60,909 nt of DNA, from NCBI GenBank assembly GCA_030530315.1, contig JAUMVG010000012.1, positions 267 through 61,175 of the forward strand, written 5' to 3'. This DNA comes from Clostridia bacterium (GTDB taxonomy: Bacteria; Bacillota; Clostridia; Christensenellales; Aristaeellaceae). The translations under genes were made by a program, and so were the position numbers. Below are positions 25,402 through 48,409 of the stretch, one piece after another (position 1 is the first letter of the stretch; every line of letters begins with the position of its first letter). The notes under the pieces were generated by a model, which saw only the letters and a program-made list of their open reading frames with translations, did no database searches and was not told where the DNA came from.

Positions 25402-25478
25402 TGGTACCGGCGATCGGATTCGAACCAATGACACTCCGGGTATGAACCGGATTCTCTAGCCAACTGAGATACGCCGGC
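25402..25478 (-). tRNA. tRNA-Met (CAT), elongator type
   Basis: A 77-nt cloverleaf with encoded CCA. The acceptor stem GCCGGCG pairs with CGCCGGT. The anticodon arm is TCCGG-TTCATAC-CCGGA, giving anticodon CAT. The T arm has GGTTCGAATCC. The three G-C pairs of initiator tRNA are absent, so this is the elongator. A tRNA-Ile with lysidine-modified CAT cannot be fully excluded by sequence alone. Confidence 0.9.
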
Positions 25479-25510
25479 ATATAAGCCAACCATATCGCTA
25501 TGGTTGGCGT

Positions 25511-25587
<77 letters not shown>

Positions 25588-25644: not shown

Positions 25645-25760
25645 GGCTTTTTTTAAATTTCTTTCGTCAGCTGAATTTATCGGGCGGCCAGGGGAAAGTG
25701 GGGGCTTTACAAAAGGCCGGGTTTATGGTATTATAGCCATGATAATTGAACAGGGAAGTT

Positions 25761-25944
25761 CGCAGGTGCCCGGCATTGCCGGGACAATAGGGAACGGGGT
25801 GAAACTCCCCGACAGGACCGCTGCTGTGAAGCGGAGCGCCGCGCAGATGCGTCATTGGCTGGCGCCGCGTCCGGGATTCGGACGGGGCCGGGGCCGAGAA
25901 GACCGCGCGGAGGCGATGATGCTGAGTCAGAAGACCTGCCTGCG
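25761..25944 (+). ncRNA. Cobalamin riboswitch (B12 element), apparently orphan
   Basis: The conserved landmarks of the AdoCbl/cobalamin riboswitch occur in order: AATAGGGAA, GGTGAAACTCC, the CGCTGCTGTGAAGCGGAGC helix and the B12 box GAGTCAGAAGACCTGCC (25924-25940). The closing helix P1 is CGCAGG (25761-25766) with CCTGCG (25939-25944). It is followed 93 nt later by an intrinsic terminator. Such switches normally repress cobalamin uptake, biosynthesis or B12-independent isozymes in cis. Here the next gene on the same strand starts 1.3 kb away (27268), and the gene in between (yfcE) runs the other way. It is either a remnant, a trans-acting/antisense RNA or the control of an unrecognised small gene. 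Confidence 0.88.
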
Positions 25945-26036
25945 GATCAAGTATCGTTTTCTTCGGCCTTAAGAAAGATATGTTCCAGAGCGAAGCGCGT
26001 GCGGTGCGGGGCATCGCTGCGTGTTGCTACGATTAC

Positions 26037-42203: not shown

Positions 42204-42794
42204 GTGATCTACTGGATTCTGGGACTGGCGATATTGGCGGGGGCAGCGGCCTGGCTGGGCTGGCGTTGCGTTTCGCTGCGCCGGGCGCTGGAGAAGGCGG
42301 AGGCCCGCTGCCGCGACCTGCAAAAGGAGCGGGCCCAACGCCAGAACCTGCAGCACGCCCTGGAGCGCCGGGGAGCGGAGGTCCGCCGCCTGCGCGCCAA
42401 GGTGGCGGAGTATGAGAGCGAGTTCCAGGAGATGGAGAACCGCGCCAACGATCTGAACATGTCGCTGTTCCAGGAAAGCGGCCTGCGCATTCTGGCCCAG
42501 AAGGAGGAAGGCGCGAACCGCCTGAAGCTGGAGCAGTTGGAGGCGCAGCTGAGCAACGCCCACCAGCACCTGAAGGCCCAGCAGGAGCAGGCCCAGGCGC
42601 AGCTGAAGGAGCGGGACGAGCAGGCCCGGGAGGCGGAGGCGAAGCTCCGCGAGGAGATCGCGGCCCGGGACAAGGAGATCGCCCGGCTCCAGACCGCCAA
42701 CGCCCGGCGTATCGCCCGCAGGGCCCAGCAGGACAACGGCGGACTGGACCAGGTGACGCTGGACGACGTGATGGGCAGGCCGACCGCGTCCTGA
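42204..42794 (+). CDS. Membrane-anchored coiled-coil protein
   Basis: A 196-residue protein of unknown function. It has one N-terminal membrane helix (about residues 2-22, IYWILGLAILAGAAAWLGW) and then about 150 residues of nearly uninterrupted charged heptads (rich in Glu, Arg, Gln, Ala), with a short acidic tail (TLDDVMGRP). GTG 42204 is chosen for the AAAGGG site. The plan resembles RmuC-, EzrA- or DivIVA-like scaffold proteins but no homology is claimed. It stands alone, upstream of the hairpin array. Confidence 0.75.
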   Translation: MIYWILGLAILAGAAAWLGWRCVSLRRALEKAEARCRDLQKERAQRQNLQHALERRGAEVRRLRAKVAEYESEFQEMENRANDLNMSLFQESGLRILAQKEEGANRLKLEQLEAQLSNAHQHLKAQQEQAQAQLKERDEQAREAEAKLREEIAARDKEIARLQTANARRIARRAQQDNGGLDQVTLDDVMGRPTAS

Positions 42795-42883
42795 ACGGAC
42801 GCTGGCGGTGACGATCGCGCGAATCTGTGATTTTGGCAGGCTTGAATCGAGCGGCGTTGCCGCCGTGTACTATGCGTTTACAT

Positions 42884-43243
42884 TTTCAAACAAATGATGC
42901 GCCTTTAACCGGGCGCATCATTTCAAACCGTTGACAAAGCCTGCAAACGCAAGAATCTCTGCCGACAGAAAAGAACAGGCAGAGATTCTTGCTTGCTGTG
43001 TTGGTTGCGCCTGCAAAATGCGGTCACTTACGACCGGGTAAGCTCCCTTTTTTGCAGGCTTGCCGCCTTGCCTTGCGAGGTGGAAATCCTAAAGGATTTC
43101 CAGTTTTCAGCTACACTGAAAACCGAAAGAACAAATATAGCATATTTGTTCTTTCGCCGAGGCTTTCTCAACGGCCTCCAGTCTGTTGACTTTGTCAACA
43201 TCCTGAAATGATGCGCCTTTAACCGGGCGCATCATTTGTTTGG
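42884..43243. repeat. Structured dispersed element, copy 1 (hairpin array)
   Basis: A 360-bp array of hairpins flanked by a 32-bp palindromic direct repeat (42891-42923 and 43206-43237, AAATGATGCGCC / GGCGCATCATTT). The core (42928-43174) shares its order of helices with copy 2. P1 is CCGTTGACAAAGCC with GGCTTTCTCAACGG. P2 is a 15-bp stem at 42949-42992. P3 is GCCTGCAAAA with TTTTGCAGGC, enclosing GGTCACTTAC and GGGTAAGCTCCCT. Extra hairpins sit between P3 and the P1 3' arm (TGGAAATCC stem, TTTTCAG stem, 15-bp CGAAAGAACAAATAT stem). No gene is present in the 42795-43329 gap. Confidence 0.85.
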
Positions 43244-43329
43244 ATTCATTTTGATACGGAGATAGGGGCGTCGCGGCGCTCAGACGGAACAAGGCCAAGC
43301 TGACATCGGTGCCGCGGCTGACGGCGAGG

Positions 43330-43794
43330 TCAGCTTTCCCGCTTCCTCAGGTAGTAATACGTATAATCCCACCTGGAATGATCGTCGCTGGAAAAGCTGG
43401 AGCCGGTTTTGTAGATGAGGGGGAGATTCCTGTACCCGTCGACCGGATCGCTGGTCAGCGTGACCCGCGGTCCCTTTTCGATATGCGACGACTTGTTGAA
43501 TTCGGAATAGCTGGATTCGCCCGTCACGCCCGCGAAGCGCGCGCCGTCCTCAGAAACCACGATTCGCTGGTCTGAGACAGGCATGGTTTCCTCTCTCAAA
43601 TTATCCTCGTCGTTTCCATAGCCGTAGTCGTTGCCCCAGCTTTCTACGGTCAGGATCTCATAGCCGTCTGCCTCCGCGCGGATTCGCGCGAAGGCTTCTT
43701 CGCCATATTCCCGCTGCGTGATGAAGCGCTTGCACGCTCCGGATGAGGCCAGGCAATCCGGCGTTCCTTCCGGGCACAGGGTCCACAGTTTCAT
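43330..43794 (-). CDS. Protein of unknown function (154 residues)
   Basis: Not recognised. A soluble 154-residue protein without signal peptide or membrane helix. It has three cysteines near the N-terminus (LCPEGTPDC, then GAC), an acidic glycine/tyrosine-rich middle (WGNDYGYGNDEDN) and a Tyr-rich end (YTYYYLRKRES). AGGTGA precedes the ATG. Codon use is less GC-biased than neighbours. The GH13 gene starts its stop only 14 bp away in the same direction, upstream, so the two may be co-transcribed; the structured element lies on its other side. Confidence 0.65.
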   Translation of the reverse strand: MKLWTLCPEGTPDCLASSGACKRFITQREYGEEAFARIRAEADGYEILTVESWGNDYGYGNDEDNLREETMPVSDQRIVVSEDGARFAGVTGESSYSEFNKSSHIEKGPRVTLTSDPVDGYRNLPLIYKTGSSFSSDDHSRWDYTYYYLRKRES

Positions 43795-43808
43795 ATCTTG
43801 TCACCTGC

Positions 43809-45704
43809 TCATTTCCCGGTCCAGCGGGTTTTCTTCGCCTGGGTGCGCATTTCCGCCGTCGGCTCCAGCCAGACAGCGGACTCCGGCGGGATTTCCCACA
43901 CCCGATCGCCGTACTCGATGCGCCGCTGTTCGCCGCAGCGGTTGACGGCCAGCGTCAGGTACTGGTTGGCCGCCGGGGCGCCGAATACGTCCACGCCGCC
44001 GGTGATGCAGCGCTCCACCAGCACGACGTCGGAGCCGACGGCGCTGAGGTGCAGGTCTCCGGTGCGCAGGGCGGAGGAGCGCATGCGGGTGAGCATGATC
44101 TCCCGGAAGGTCTCCACGAGGCCCTCGTCCTCGTGTCCCCAGGGGTAGGTGGCCCGGTTGTAGGGGTCGGCCATGCCCGTCAGGCCGGCCTCGTCGCCGT
44201 AGTAGAGGCAGGGCATGCCGGGAAGGGCGCAGATCAGCGTCCAGGCAGCGATCAGGCGCTGCCGGCCGCGGGCGTAGTCCTCGGGGCTCATCATGAAGGG
44301 GTGGCGATAGACCCGGTCTGGAGCCATGTCGCCGATGTTCGCCAGCACGCTGATGGCCCGGGGCGTGTCGTGGCTGCCCAGCAGGTTCATCTCGGAGTAG
44401 AGGAAGGGCAGGGGCATGTTCTCCCGCAGGCTCTCCAGGTGCCGCACGAAGGAGGGCGCGTCGCACCGGCAGCAGAGGAACTCCACGATGGCGTCCCGCA
44501 GGGGGTAGTTCATGCAGCTGTCCAGGGTGTCGCCCAGGCAGTAGCAGCGCATCTCGCCGTAGGCCACCTTGTTGGTGGGGTCCTCCCAGACCTCGCCGAT
44601 CAGGGCGGAATCCGGCCGCTCCCGGCGGATGCGGGCGCGCAGCTTACGAATGAAGGCCATGGGCAGCTCGTCGGCCACGTCCAGCCGCCAGCCGGACGCG
44701 CCGGCGCGGATCCAGTGGGCGGTCACGCTGTCGTCGTCCTCGATGATGAAGCGCTGGTAGCTCTCGGTCTCCTCGTGCACGTTGGGCAGGGTCTTGAAGT
44801 TCCACCAGCACTCGTAGTCGTCGGGCCAGCGGCGGAAGCGGTACCACTCCCGGTAGGGAGACTCGGGGTCGTTGTAGGCGCCGCCGGGGCCGTAATTGCC
44901 GTCCCGGTTGAAGTACAGGCTGTCCGAGCCGGTGTGGGAGAACACGCCGTCCAGGATCACGCGCATGCCCCGCGCCCGGGCCGCCGTGCAGAGGGCACGG
45001 AAGTCCGCCTCGGTGCCGAAGCTGGGGTCGATCTGCATGTAGTCGCCGGTGTTGTACTTGTGGTTGCTGCGGGCCTTGAAGATGGGGTTGAAGTACAGCA
45101 CGGTGACGCCCAGGCTCTGGATGTAGTCCAGCTTCTCCATGATGCCCCGCAGGTTGCCGCCGAAGTAGTCGTTGTTGCAGTTGTCGCCGTACTTGTCGTC
45201 GTTGATGATCAGGGCGGGGTCGTCGTCCCAGCGCAGGTGATAATAGGAGGCCGGGGGCAGCTTGCGCACGTCCTTCTTGCCCGCGCAGTGGTAGCGGTCC
45301 ACCATGATTTGCAGCATCATGCCGTTGCGCATCCACTCCGGGGTCTGGTAGGCGGGGTCGTACACGGTGACCTGGTAGCCGCCCGGGGCGCTTTCCGACA
45401 GGGCGCCGATCCCGCCCAGTCCGTCGGCGGCGTTGCCCCAGAACCAAGTCTTGCCGCCTCTGTCCACGGCCATGAAATAGTACCACAGCAAGCCGGGCTC
45501 CGAGGGGAGAGTGACCTCGCACTCATACATGCCGTCGTGGGTGGGACGCATGGGCAGTATGCTCTCCGCCTCCTGCCACCACAGGCGCAGGCATATCCTG
45601 TGCAGGCCCTCCGCCCGCACCCGCAGGCGCAGCTGCCGTCCGCAGGGTGCGGCGCCCTGGGGCGTGCGATAGGCGGGGTCGCGGGAATCGTGGAAGAAAT
45701 TCAT
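43809..45704 (-). CDS. Alpha-amylase family GH13 protein (neopullulanase/cyclomaltodextrinase-like)
   Basis: A 631-residue alpha-glucan hydrolase. An N-terminal beta-sandwich (about residues 1-125) precedes the TIM barrel, as in neopullulanase and cyclomaltodextrinase. Conserved regions are RVILDGVFSHTG, GWRLDVADE (nucleophile D342), LIGEVWED (acid/base E371) and LGSHDTPR (D446). There is no signal peptide, so it acts in the cytoplasm on imported or stored maltodextrins. ATG 45704 has TAGGAGT before it. It lies downstream of glgP in the same direction, with element copy 2 in the gap. Confidence 0.9.
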   Translation of the reverse strand: MNFFHDSRDPAYRTPQGAAPCGRQLRLRVRAEGLHRICLRLWWQEAESILPMRPTHDGMYECEVTLPSEPGLLWYYFMAVDRGGKTWFWGNAADGLGGIGALSESAPGGYQVTVYDPAYQTPEWMRNGMMLQIMVDRYHCAGKKDVRKLPPASYYHLRWDDDPALIINDDKYGDNCNNDYFGGNLRGIMEKLDYIQSLGVTVLYFNPIFKARSNHKYNTGDYMQIDPSFGTEADFRALCTAARARGMRVILDGVFSHTGSDSLYFNRDGNYGPGGAYNDPESPYREWYRFRRWPDDYECWWNFKTLPNVHEETESYQRFIIEDDDSVTAHWIRAGASGWRLDVADELPMAFIRKLRARIRRERPDSALIGEVWEDPTNKVAYGEMRCYCLGDTLDSCMNYPLRDAIVEFLCCRCDAPSFVRHLESLRENMPLPFLYSEMNLLGSHDTPRAISVLANIGDMAPDRVYRHPFMMSPEDYARGRQRLIAAWTLICALPGMPCLYYGDEAGLTGMADPYNRATYPWGHEDEGLVETFREIMLTRMRSSALRTGDLHLSAVGSDVVLVERCITGGVDVFGAPAANQYLTLAVNRCGEQRRIEYGDRVWEIPPESAVWLEPTAEMRTQAKKTRWTGK

Positions 45705-45742
45705 GGAATCACTCCTACTGCGTGGGATGCCACAAAATGAAG

Positions 45743-45942
45743 GAATTTGGAATGGGGTGTGCCATTCCAAATTCCCCAGACCGCTGACAAAGCCCGCAAA
45801 CACAAGAATCTCTGCGAACAAAAAGACGGGCAGAGATTCTTGCTTGCTGTGTTGGCTTCAATTGCAAATATCGGTCACTTACATTTGGGTAAGTTCCCTC
45901 ATTTGCAATTTTGCCGCCTTGCCTTGCAAGCTTTTTCAGCGG
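45743..45942. repeat. Structured dispersed element, copy 2
   Basis: The core (45781-45942) repeats copy 1. P1 is CCGCTGACAAAGC with GCTTTTTCAGCGG. P2 is CAAGAATCTCTGC (45803-45815) with GCAGAGATTCTTG (45830-45842). P3 is AATTGCAAAT (45860-45869) with ATTTGCAATT (45901-45910), enclosing GGTCACTTAC (45873-45882) and GGGTAAGTTCCCT (45887-45899). A separate 13-bp hairpin (GGAATTTGGAATG stem, 45743-45776) stands where copy 1 has its ATGATGCGCC hairpin. It lies between glgP and the GH13 gene. Confidence 0.85.
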
Positions 45943-45961
45943 CCTTCAATTCTGCCAAAGC

Positions 45962-48409
45962 TTACAGCTTCAGGGGCTTCAGGTGCCAGATCAGCCGGTT
46001 GTACTCCTCGATGGTGCGGTCGGAGGTGAACAGGCTGGAGCAGGCGGTATTCATGATGGACTTGTGCAGCCACAGCTTGCGGTCGTCGTAGTCGCGCAGC
46101 AGGTCCTTCTGGGTGTTCACGTAGGGCGCCAGGTCCTTCAGCACGAAGTAGGGGTCGGCCATTCCGCCGCCGTCGCCGAACAGCAGGGAGTGGTAGATCT
46201 CCTGGAACATGCGGGGGTTCTCCGGGCACAGGGTGCCGTCGATCAGCTGCTCCATCACGCGGCGGATCTTCGGGTTGGTCTCGTAGATCTCGTGGGCGCG
46301 ATAGGTGGCGTAGCCGCGGTCCACCTCCTCGGCGGTGAGGCCGAAGATGTAGATATTTTCCGGGCCGACCTGCTGGTAGATCTCGCAGTTGGCGCCGTCC
46401 ATGGTGCCCAGGGTCACCGCGCCGTTCATCATGAACTTCATGTTGCCGGTGCCGCTGGCTTCCTTGCCGGCGGTGGAGATCTGCTGGCTGATCTCGGTGG
46501 CGGGCATCAGCAGCTCCGCCTGGGAGACGCAGTAGTTCTCCAGGAACACCACGTTGATCAGCTTGGAGGCGCGGGGATGCTTGCGCACCAGGTCGCCCAC
46601 GGCGTTGATCAGCTTGATGGTCAGCTTCGCGCGCTGATAGCCCGGCGCGGCCTTGGCGCCGAAGATGAAGGTGTGGGCGTGGAACTCCTGCTCGGGGTGC
46701 TCCACGATCTCGTTGTAGAGCACCATGATGCCCAGGGCGTTCATCAGCTGGCGCTTGTACTCGTGCAGGCGCTTGGCCTGGGCGTCGAAGATGCTCTCGG
46801 GGTTCATCTCGATGCCCTGATAGCGGTAGACGTGGTCCGCCAGGCGCAGCTTGTTGTGGTACTTGATGTCATTGAAGCGCTGCTGGAAGGCGGGGTCGTC
46901 CGCGAAGGCCTTCAGGTCGGCGATGCGGGGCATGTCCTTGCGCCAGCCGTCGCCGATGGCTTCGTCGATCAGGCTGGACAGCTCCGGGTTGCACTGCATC
47001 AGCCAGCGGCGATGGGTGATGCCGTTGGTGACGTTGACGAACTTGCGGGGCTCCAGCATGTAGAAGTCGTGGAAGGTCTGCTTCTTGAGGATCTCGGTGT
47101 GGATGGCGGACACGCCGTTGACGGAGTGGGCGTAGGCCACGCACAGGTTGGCCATGTGCACCTGGTTGTAGGCGAGGATGGCCATGTGCCCGATGCGCTC
47201 CCACTGGCCGGGGAAGGAATCCCACAGCTTGGCGCACAGGCGGGTGTTCATCTCCTGCAGGATCATGTAAATGCGGGGCAGCTGCTCCTTGAACAGGCTC
47301 TCCGGCCACTTCTCCAGCGCCTCCACCAGCACGGTGTGGTTGGTGTAGGCGAAGGTGCGGCGGGCGATGCTCTCCGCGGTGTCCCAGCCCAGGCCGTAAT
47401 CGTCCATCAGGATGCGCATCAGCTCGGGGATGGCCACGGCGGGATGGGTGTCGTTGATGTGGATGGCCACCTTGTCCGGGAAGATGGACCAGTGATAGCC
47501 GTAGGTATCGATGAACTCCTTCACCGCGAACTGGATGGAGGCGGAGGAGAAGAAGTACTGCTGCTTCAGGCGCAGCTCCTTGCCCTGGTAGCTGTCGTCG
47601 TTGGGGTAGAGGATCTTGGAGATGACCTCCGCCAACTCGCGCTCCTCCATGGCCTGCACGTACTGGCCGCGGTTGAAGTGCATCATGTCGATCTGCTGGG
47701 TGGCCTTCGCGCTCCAGGTGCGCAGGAAGTTGACCTTGGTGCTGTCGTAGCCCACCACGGGGATGTCGTAGGGCACGGCCTGCACGGTCTTGTAGTCCAG
47801 GTGGCGGAAGAACGTGTGCCCGTTCTCCTCGTAGGACTCGATGCGGCCGCCGAAGTGGATCTCCATGGTGTCCTGGGGATGGGGGATCTCCCAGATGTTG
47901 CCCTGGGCCAGCCAGTTGTCCGGCACCTCGACCTGATAGCCGTCCACCAGCTTCTGGCGGAACAGGCCGAACTCATAGCGAATGGTGCAGCCCATAGCGG
48001 GCAGCTTCAGAGTGGTCAGGGAGTCCAGGAAGCAGGCGGCCAGGCGGCCCAGACCGCCGTTGCCCAGGCCGGGCTCCGGCTCCTGCTCGAACACGATGGA
48101 GCGGTCGATATTCAGCTCGTCCAGAGCCTGCATATAGTTTTTCTCGTTGACCAGGTTGACCATGTTGTTGTGCAGGGTGCGGCCCACCAGGAACTCGGCG
48201 CTGAGATAATACACTTTTTTGGCCTGCTGTTCCTTGCGCGCGTCGCGGGAATAGCTCCTGCGCTGCATGATCTCATCGCGCACCACCAGGGCCAGGGCCT
48301 GATAGAGCTGTTCCGGCGTGGCGTCGCTCACGTCGCAGGCAAACTGGGTGTGCAGCTTATTGAGAATACTGTCTTTGATTTGCGCAACGGTCATCCGTTC
48401 AAATTCCAC
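45962..48409 (-). CDS. glgP: Glycogen/starch/alpha-glucan phosphorylase
   Basis: Pyridoxal-phosphate enzyme that releases glucose-1-phosphate from the non-reducing end of alpha-1,4-glucans. It has 815 residues from GTG 48409, which has a GGAGGT site 6 bases before it. The PLP lysine is in EASGTGNMKFMMNGAVTLG (K658). Other conserved stretches are GNGGLGRLAACF and the NDTHPA nucleotide-site motif. The neighbours supply the rest of the pathway: GH13 for debranching or trimming, and the phosphohexomutase at 50581 for glucose-1-P to glucose-6-P. Confidence 0.96.
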   Translation of the reverse strand: MEFERMTVAQIKDSILNKLHTQFACDVSDATPEQLYQALALVVRDEIMQRRSYSRDARKEQQAKKVYYLSAEFLVGRTLHNNMVNLVNEKNYMQALDELNIDRSIVFEQEPEPGLGNGGLGRLAACFLDSLTTLKLPAMGCTIRYEFGLFRQKLVDGYQVEVPDNWLAQGNIWEIPHPQDTMEIHFGGRIESYEENGHTFFRHLDYKTVQAVPYDIPVVGYDSTKVNFLRTWSAKATQQIDMMHFNRGQYVQAMEERELAEVISKILYPNDDSYQGKELRLKQQYFFSSASIQFAVKEFIDTYGYHWSIFPDKVAIHINDTHPAVAIPELMRILMDDYGLGWDTAESIARRTFAYTNHTVLVEALEKWPESLFKEQLPRIYMILQEMNTRLCAKLWDSFPGQWERIGHMAILAYNQVHMANLCVAYAHSVNGVSAIHTEILKKQTFHDFYMLEPRKFVNVTNGITHRRWLMQCNPELSSLIDEAIGDGWRKDMPRIADLKAFADDPAFQQRFNDIKYHNKLRLADHVYRYQGIEMNPESIFDAQAKRLHEYKRQLMNALGIMVLYNEIVEHPEQEFHAHTFIFGAKAAPGYQRAKLTIKLINAVGDLVRKHPRASKLINVVFLENYCVSQAELLMPATEISQQISTAGKEASGTGNMKFMMNGAVTLGTMDGANCEIYQQVGPENIYIFGLTAEEVDRGYATYRAHEIYETNPKIRRVMEQLIDGTLCPENPRMFQEIYHSLLFGDGGGMADPYFVLKDLAPYVNTQKDLLRDYDDRKLWLHKSIMNTACSSLFTSDRTIEEYNRLIWHLKPLKL

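Follow-up and report, generated by a model that had tools for sequence, protein, structure and literature searches.

Whether a folded repeat acts as an RNA or moves as DNA is the question raised by two gaps between open reading frames in the window, the 60,909-nucleotide stretch of a Clostridia bacterium contig analyzed here. The original prediction placed a three-helix core in both gaps. Direct reading of the sequence finds the stems, inner motifs and linkers there, and copies 1 and 2 are linked as one element by two repeat families, D1 (80% over 111 nt) and D9 (85% over 48 nt). The core is thus present twice, but the element itself is wider, and at copy 1 a direct repeat of 32 bp marks its borders. 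Both repeats belong to a mobile element of gut Clostridia that is MITE-like, non-coding and about 200 bases long. We describe its target duplication as a whole stem-loop because hairpins form the direct repeats at its borders and because the sister genome G023 has an element-free site corresponding to copy 2.

Anatomy and copies of the element

The features of the two copies, by coordinates and strand, are as follows.

42892..42923, no strand: target duplication, left copy; terminator-like hairpin AAATGATGCGCC..GGCGCATCATTT; 32/32 direct repeat with 43206-43237 (D18); DNA fold -13.2 kcal/mol, z -5.6
42924..43205, plus: element copy 1, 282 bp; left end CAAACCGTTGACAAAG, right end GTCAACATCCTG
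42928..42941, plus: P1 left arm, within the left terminal inverted repeat (read from the sequence; pairs counted in the genus alignment)
42949..42992, plus: P2 hairpin (helices 1 and 2 of the wide alignment, 94.8% and 91.0% of cells paired)
43009..43059, plus: P3 hairpin, apex GGTCACTTAC..GGGTAAGCTCCCT (helices 4-6 of the wide alignment, 90.2-98.2% of cells paired)
43066..43076, plus: conserved linker CCTTGCCTTGC (alignments)
about 43077..43160, plus: three-hairpin cassette, only in a subset of copies (own genome 5, G023 2 seen, variants in G005)
43161..43174, plus: P1 right arm (read from the sequence)
43179..43205, plus: right-end palindrome CAGTCTGTTGACTTTGTCAACATCCTG (DNA fold -5.5 kcal/mol; 2/200 shuffles as good)
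43206..43237, no strand: target duplication, right copy (terminator-like hairpin); 32-bp direct repeat with 42892-42923
45742..45775, minus: terminator-like hairpin, left foot of copy 2, right copy none seen; counterpart at the element-free site in G023
45777..45945, plus: element copy 2, without the right-end palindrome (host-genome match, G023 comparison)

As in MITEs, the full unit of about 199 bp is non-coding and carries terminal inverted repeats. The left end reads CAGACCGCTGACAAAG and the complement of the right end CAGGATGTTGACAAAG. At the right end, a palindrome of 27 bp terminates in CATCCTG, and its outer half is the inverted repeat of the left end; the stem described as P1 is largely this terminal inverted repeat. 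Between the ends lie P2, conserved linkers and P3, whose apex reads GGTYAYTTAC..GTAARCNCCC. Copy 1, flanked by two convergent ORFs, is wider than the reported core and bears the additional three-hairpin cassette, 83 bp long. The final 25-30 bases, and with them the right-end palindrome, are lost from copy 2. The inner motifs, taken as invariant from these two copies, are present in both but vary over 67 copies in a pairing-consistent manner (CTTAC/GTAAG, TTTAC/GTAAA).

The host genome yields 37 matches at about 32 places to a 252-base query from copy 1; five of the 37 are the inverted self-match of the cassette hairpin, and 30 were returned as loci. The element occurs in 14 of 60 genomes, its own included: 13 of the 28 in the genus and one from another genus of the family. 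Excluding the host, 13 of 59 relatives have a match. The right-end sequence, with up to three mismatches, is found in 11 of the 28 genus genomes, and the reversed control in none. With the host counted, a covariance model built from these copies finds matches in 60 of 297 genomes and 34 of 125 genera of the order. Of 291 genomes drawn from across the class, 11 match the model. Two of these are in the order, to which 13 of the drawn genomes belong, leaving 9 of about 278 in other orders. Copy numbers per genome in the genus, order and class searches are to be read as "at least", the best 13 candidates per genome being scored in the first and the best 8 in the other two.

Among 59 distant elements, 11 have a direct repeat at their ends scoring 12 or more, compared with 0 of 59 in shifted controls. 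They belong to families f1, f17, f27, f31, f42, f49 and f61, and they too duplicate a hairpin; the remaining 48 show no such repeat, and many are without the CAGA..CTG ends. The element begins at a tRNA 3' end in three genomes (families f24, f29 and f32). Some families contain tandem relatives of the core, with three units of 141 bp in L296 (G107) and further examples in L279 (G075) and L278 (G046). In L271-L274 and L276 (genus g79, family f3), mostly the P3 part alone is recognized, and the enclosing outer stems differ strongly between copies.

Rfam searches gave no match at the window copies by gathering score, and in E-value mode nothing beyond chance at these copies or at the cores of nine distant loci. 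Membership in an Rfam family was therefore rejected, which agrees with the initial impression of an unrecognized family. The only gathering-score matches in the window are a Cobalamin riboswitch (plus) and two tRNA genes (minus), at 25747-25957 and 25405-25587. The open-access literature searched contains no description of the element, nor of a recognizably identical terminator-duplicating MITE or IS. Carriage by viruses was also rejected, with neither an exact match of the right-end sequence nor a relative of the transposase found in viral contigs.

Insertion at duplicated terminator-like hairpins

Direct repeats of 17-40 bp (median 26) bound 50 of the 67 full copies and fit the target duplication expected of a MITE. 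Under the cut used, the other 17 show no direct repeat. Among the 67, L071 and L072 represent the same insertion in two genomes. Each repeat is a palindrome specific to its locus and usually resembles an intrinsic terminator; copy 1, for example, lies between two identical 32-bp hairpins (32/32). A stem of at least 7 bp is present in 47 of the 50 repeats, all but one of which (46) have it extending to 2-3 bases from either end. Random stretches of the window contain such a stem in 454 of 20,000 cases; in 128 of the 20,000 it extends to both ends. When all fetched loci were scanned for palindromic direct repeats, 41 of the 44 found bound the element (40) or the IS described below (1) by their ends, a proportion enriched by the fact that the loci were mostly fetched for holding the element. 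In G023, the flanks of copy 2 and a matching hairpin are present without the element, although loss of the element could also produce this arrangement. Together with the dispersed copies and defined ends, the hairpin duplications and the element-free site bear out the suggestion of a transposition-competent hairpin element.

Relative to the T-tract of the hairpin, the 50 repeat-bounded copies are oriented 13 one way and 13 the other, with 24 unclear. Four right-truncated copies (L189, L174, L024 and L079) still have the hairpin repeat, which in L079 and L024 is longer than the hairpin. Internal breaks on the right side fall within 14 positions at the P3 apex in 9 of 20 cases, with both the bin and the set picked after seeing the data. 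Rows excluded from the 20 by eye are copies with the cassette, copies that have both ends but an internal deletion (L121, L095, L105, L144), the nested insertion L113, contig-end cuts (L062, L183), the reverse row of L007, L179 (alignment drift) and copies lacking only about the last 30 positions. L024, for which the alignment drifts to 129 and the break is at 107, was counted outside the hotspot.

Other repeats occur in the vicinity of some copies. L100 has a 28-bp palindromic direct repeat around 994 bp adjoining an element copy. In L113, L140 and L085, another dispersed repeat, whose end is CTAGAGTCTGTTTCTAAAT.. or similar, is nested in or beside the copies. A sequence like GTTTCCGTGATGAAC, perhaps another mobile repeat, recurs at the broken edge of or near copies in L026, L028, L067 and L116.

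Covariation and strand of the folded core

The compensatory changes first noted in P1 and P3 are real and extend beyond the two window copies, as seen in pair counts, mutual information and the wide alignment. After background correction, 8 of the top 11 among 18,932 column pairs ranked by mutual information fall in the predicted plus or minus structures (7 in plus), a ranking that is partly circular because these structures were predicted from the same alignment, and for which slid-partner and alignment-free tests serve as checks. In the wide alignment (A3; 54 loci, 61 rows), which was fitted to the covariance model and is biased towards it, 624 cells changed on both sides, compared with 181 after shuffling and 105-151 with slid partners. 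Four of these rows show, on the other strand, copies that the alignment contains anyway; they were removed for pair-type counts and kept for helix and slid-partner counts. In the alignment-free test of P3, stems average 7.0 when the flanks are a copy's own and 2.9 when they are swapped (47 places at 38 loci, a few of the places being false motif matches). This covariation supports the earlier claim of selection on structure. The related full copy L007, outside the window, folds better than chance, with z = -9.9 on the plus and -12.3 on the minus strand.

The strand assignment fares differently. Across P2 and P3, the wide alignment has 51 G-T and 39 A-C cells, which is near balance, and departures from pairing in P1 of the genus alignment are mostly A-C on the plus strand, corresponding to G-U on the minus. 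RNAalifold favors the minus strand in both the genus alignment (-58 versus -41) and the wide alignment (-24 versus -21). The proposal that a G-U wobble marks the plus strand as the RNA strand is not supported by these pair types and scores or by the even T-tract orientation. Unpaired positions are conserved at 90% or more in the wide alignment, and no sigma-70-like site is seen within 42700-46100.

The candidate mobilizer and competing explanations

An IS1182-family gene with a split frame lies inside an IS in G000:C48, in the window's own genome. It scores 232 bits to NF033551 alone (cut-off 270) and 274.9 with its neighbor. The left end of this IS abuts a hairpin and reads CAAACCGTTGACAAAGG; a left end common to the element and IS1182 copies is found in G000, G023 and G024, with full frames in the G023 and G024 relatives. 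The IS1182 left end CAGACCGTTGACAAAG also adjoins a hairpin in L191, L192 and others. A contig scan for the IS returned 15 loci, with hosts named as uncultured Clostridia, Candidatus Pullichristensenella and Candidatus Excrementavichristensenella. Both sides are visible in five IS copies: four have different hairpins on the left and right (L191, L192, L217, L222), and one, L215, is an IS of 1531 bp with a full 31-bp hairpin duplication. The remaining loci of the scan are cut. In L225 (Candidatus Pullichristensenella), IS and element sit on the two feet of one hairpin.

Within the genus, IS1182 matches occur in 7 of 13 element carriers and 6 of 15 non-carriers, so IS1182 does not track the element. 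The IS type with the matched end has been found only in the three genomes G000, G023 and G024 and was not seen at ten further IS1182 loci, some of them cut by contig ends. Outside the genus, NF033551 finds no IS1182 gene in any of 29 carriers searched (0/20 and 0/9), to which the L225 record, holding both IS and element, is an exception; PF05598 finds none in 15 carriers, three of them in the genus. A general role for IS1182 as mobilizer outside the genus is accordingly not supported. The element is too short for an IS1182 transposase gene and is not itself a member of that family, and IS1202, an earlier candidate partner for which the literature search gave no match, was dropped once the IS1182 gene was found. 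Among plasmids, 367 records have IS1182-like matches, all below 60% identity. The genus also contains a second IS1182 subgroup with different flanks (L193-L196, L204), beside which the element ends were not seen.

The IS1182 family offers one of the nearest parallels. Wan et al. (2017, PMC5678879) describe IS1272, a member of the family, as replacing a stem-loop, report no target duplication for the new insertions, and draw joining of this type as a reaction that could also duplicate the stem-loop. The element resembles IS1182-family members including IS1272 in its structure-directed insertion at inverted repeats of unrelated sequence (PMC5678879), and an IS1182 element in the bacterial family of the window in its left terminal sequence. 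Unlike IS1272, it has no gene, and its stem-loop is duplicated; replacement of the IS1272 type was rejected, since the target stem-loop stays in place and 50 of the 67 full copies have it twice. The element thus shows many times over the outcome drawn in that paper (PMC5678879). With bacterial MITEs it shares short length, absence of coding sequence, terminal inverted repeats, dispersal and target duplications; in contrast to them, only its end visibly resembles the candidate parent IS, and its interior is conserved as a multi-helix structure over many families. REP/BIME sequences with RAYT, and bcr1, a structured short repeat of Bacillus cereus, are likewise dispersed, hairpin-rich and extragenic, but the element differs in targeting, and duplicating, a terminator-like palindrome. 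Group IIC introns also insert beside terminators; they are much larger and are not known to duplicate the hairpin, and Rfam finds no intron match in the window.

The explanation that we consider probable is a MITE-like non-coding element with a hairpin-recognizing DDE enzyme that duplicates the target, with IS1182 as donor in the window's own family, and with the fold kept for mobility. An integrase-like (DDE) enzyme would recognize the target stem-loop by its structure and join the element at the two feet, and gap repair would therefore duplicate the whole hairpin. Such a reaction is the most likely one, with an IS1182-family IS as the likely donor only in the bacterial family of the window because the counts speak against IS1182 elsewhere. 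The folded core would be conserved because a particular arrangement of hairpins has to form, presumably as DNA (cruciform or single strand) during mobility rather than as stable RNA; the near-balanced G-T and A-C pairs in P2 and P3 and the lack of a visible orientation bias make the DNA reading more likely. Right-truncated copies with a hairpin repeat are not predicted by a two-ended DDE reaction. We can only speculate that an enzyme attacking the element's own P3 hairpin gives rise to both the apex breaks and these copies. A broader version, which we put forward tentatively, is a Clostridia-wide mobile class, independent of IS1182, in which an enzyme recognizes the folded core, inserts it at 3' ends of transcription units (terminators and tRNA genes) and duplicates the hairpin.

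It is rather unlikely that a mobile element merely carries a conserved structured RNA, with selection acting on the RNA, for example within the 3' UTR of a terminated gene or as a protein-bound guide or scaffold. Strong covariation over many families would fit such an RNA, conserved unpaired bases are also expected of one, and insertion beside terminators and tRNA 3' ends places the element in transcripts; the better fold of the minus strand points the same way. However, P2 and P3 show no clear excess of G-U over A-C, both orientations to terminators are equally common, and neither a sigma-70-like site near the copies nor an Rfam relative was found. We consider it improbable that a SINE-like retroelement is responsible, in which reverse transcriptase would copy an RNA after priming at a terminator or tRNA target and leave duplications of variable length and incomplete copies. 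The inverted repeats at the two termini, duplications that mostly end at the palindrome feet and copies cut on the left instead argue against it, even though duplication length varies, right-side breaks keep the left end and cluster at the P3 apex (in the post hoc bin), the four truncated copies retain a repeat (longer than the hairpin in two), the targets are RNA ends and the searched carriers outside the genus have no IS1182 gene. Spread of static, terminator-associated hairpins by recombination, without an element-specific enzyme, might account for the many decayed remnants and for tandem copies in other families; it is very improbable in view of the defined ends, the locus-specific hairpin duplications, the element-free site and near-identical copies at different loci.

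Where, as in L009, the T-tract remains with the right copy of the hairpin, the transcript of the gene upstream would cross the element before ending. Since a hairpin and its T-tract stay downstream, the upstream gene may still be terminated after the insertion, and low cost to the host would then account for the spread of the element. Dozens of natural insertions with a complete stem-loop duplication are thereby available, where PMC5678879 drew such duplication only as a possible pathway. Conservation of the core over many families, together with the absence of an IS1182 gene from most distant carriers searched, points to a mobility system that is new to description.
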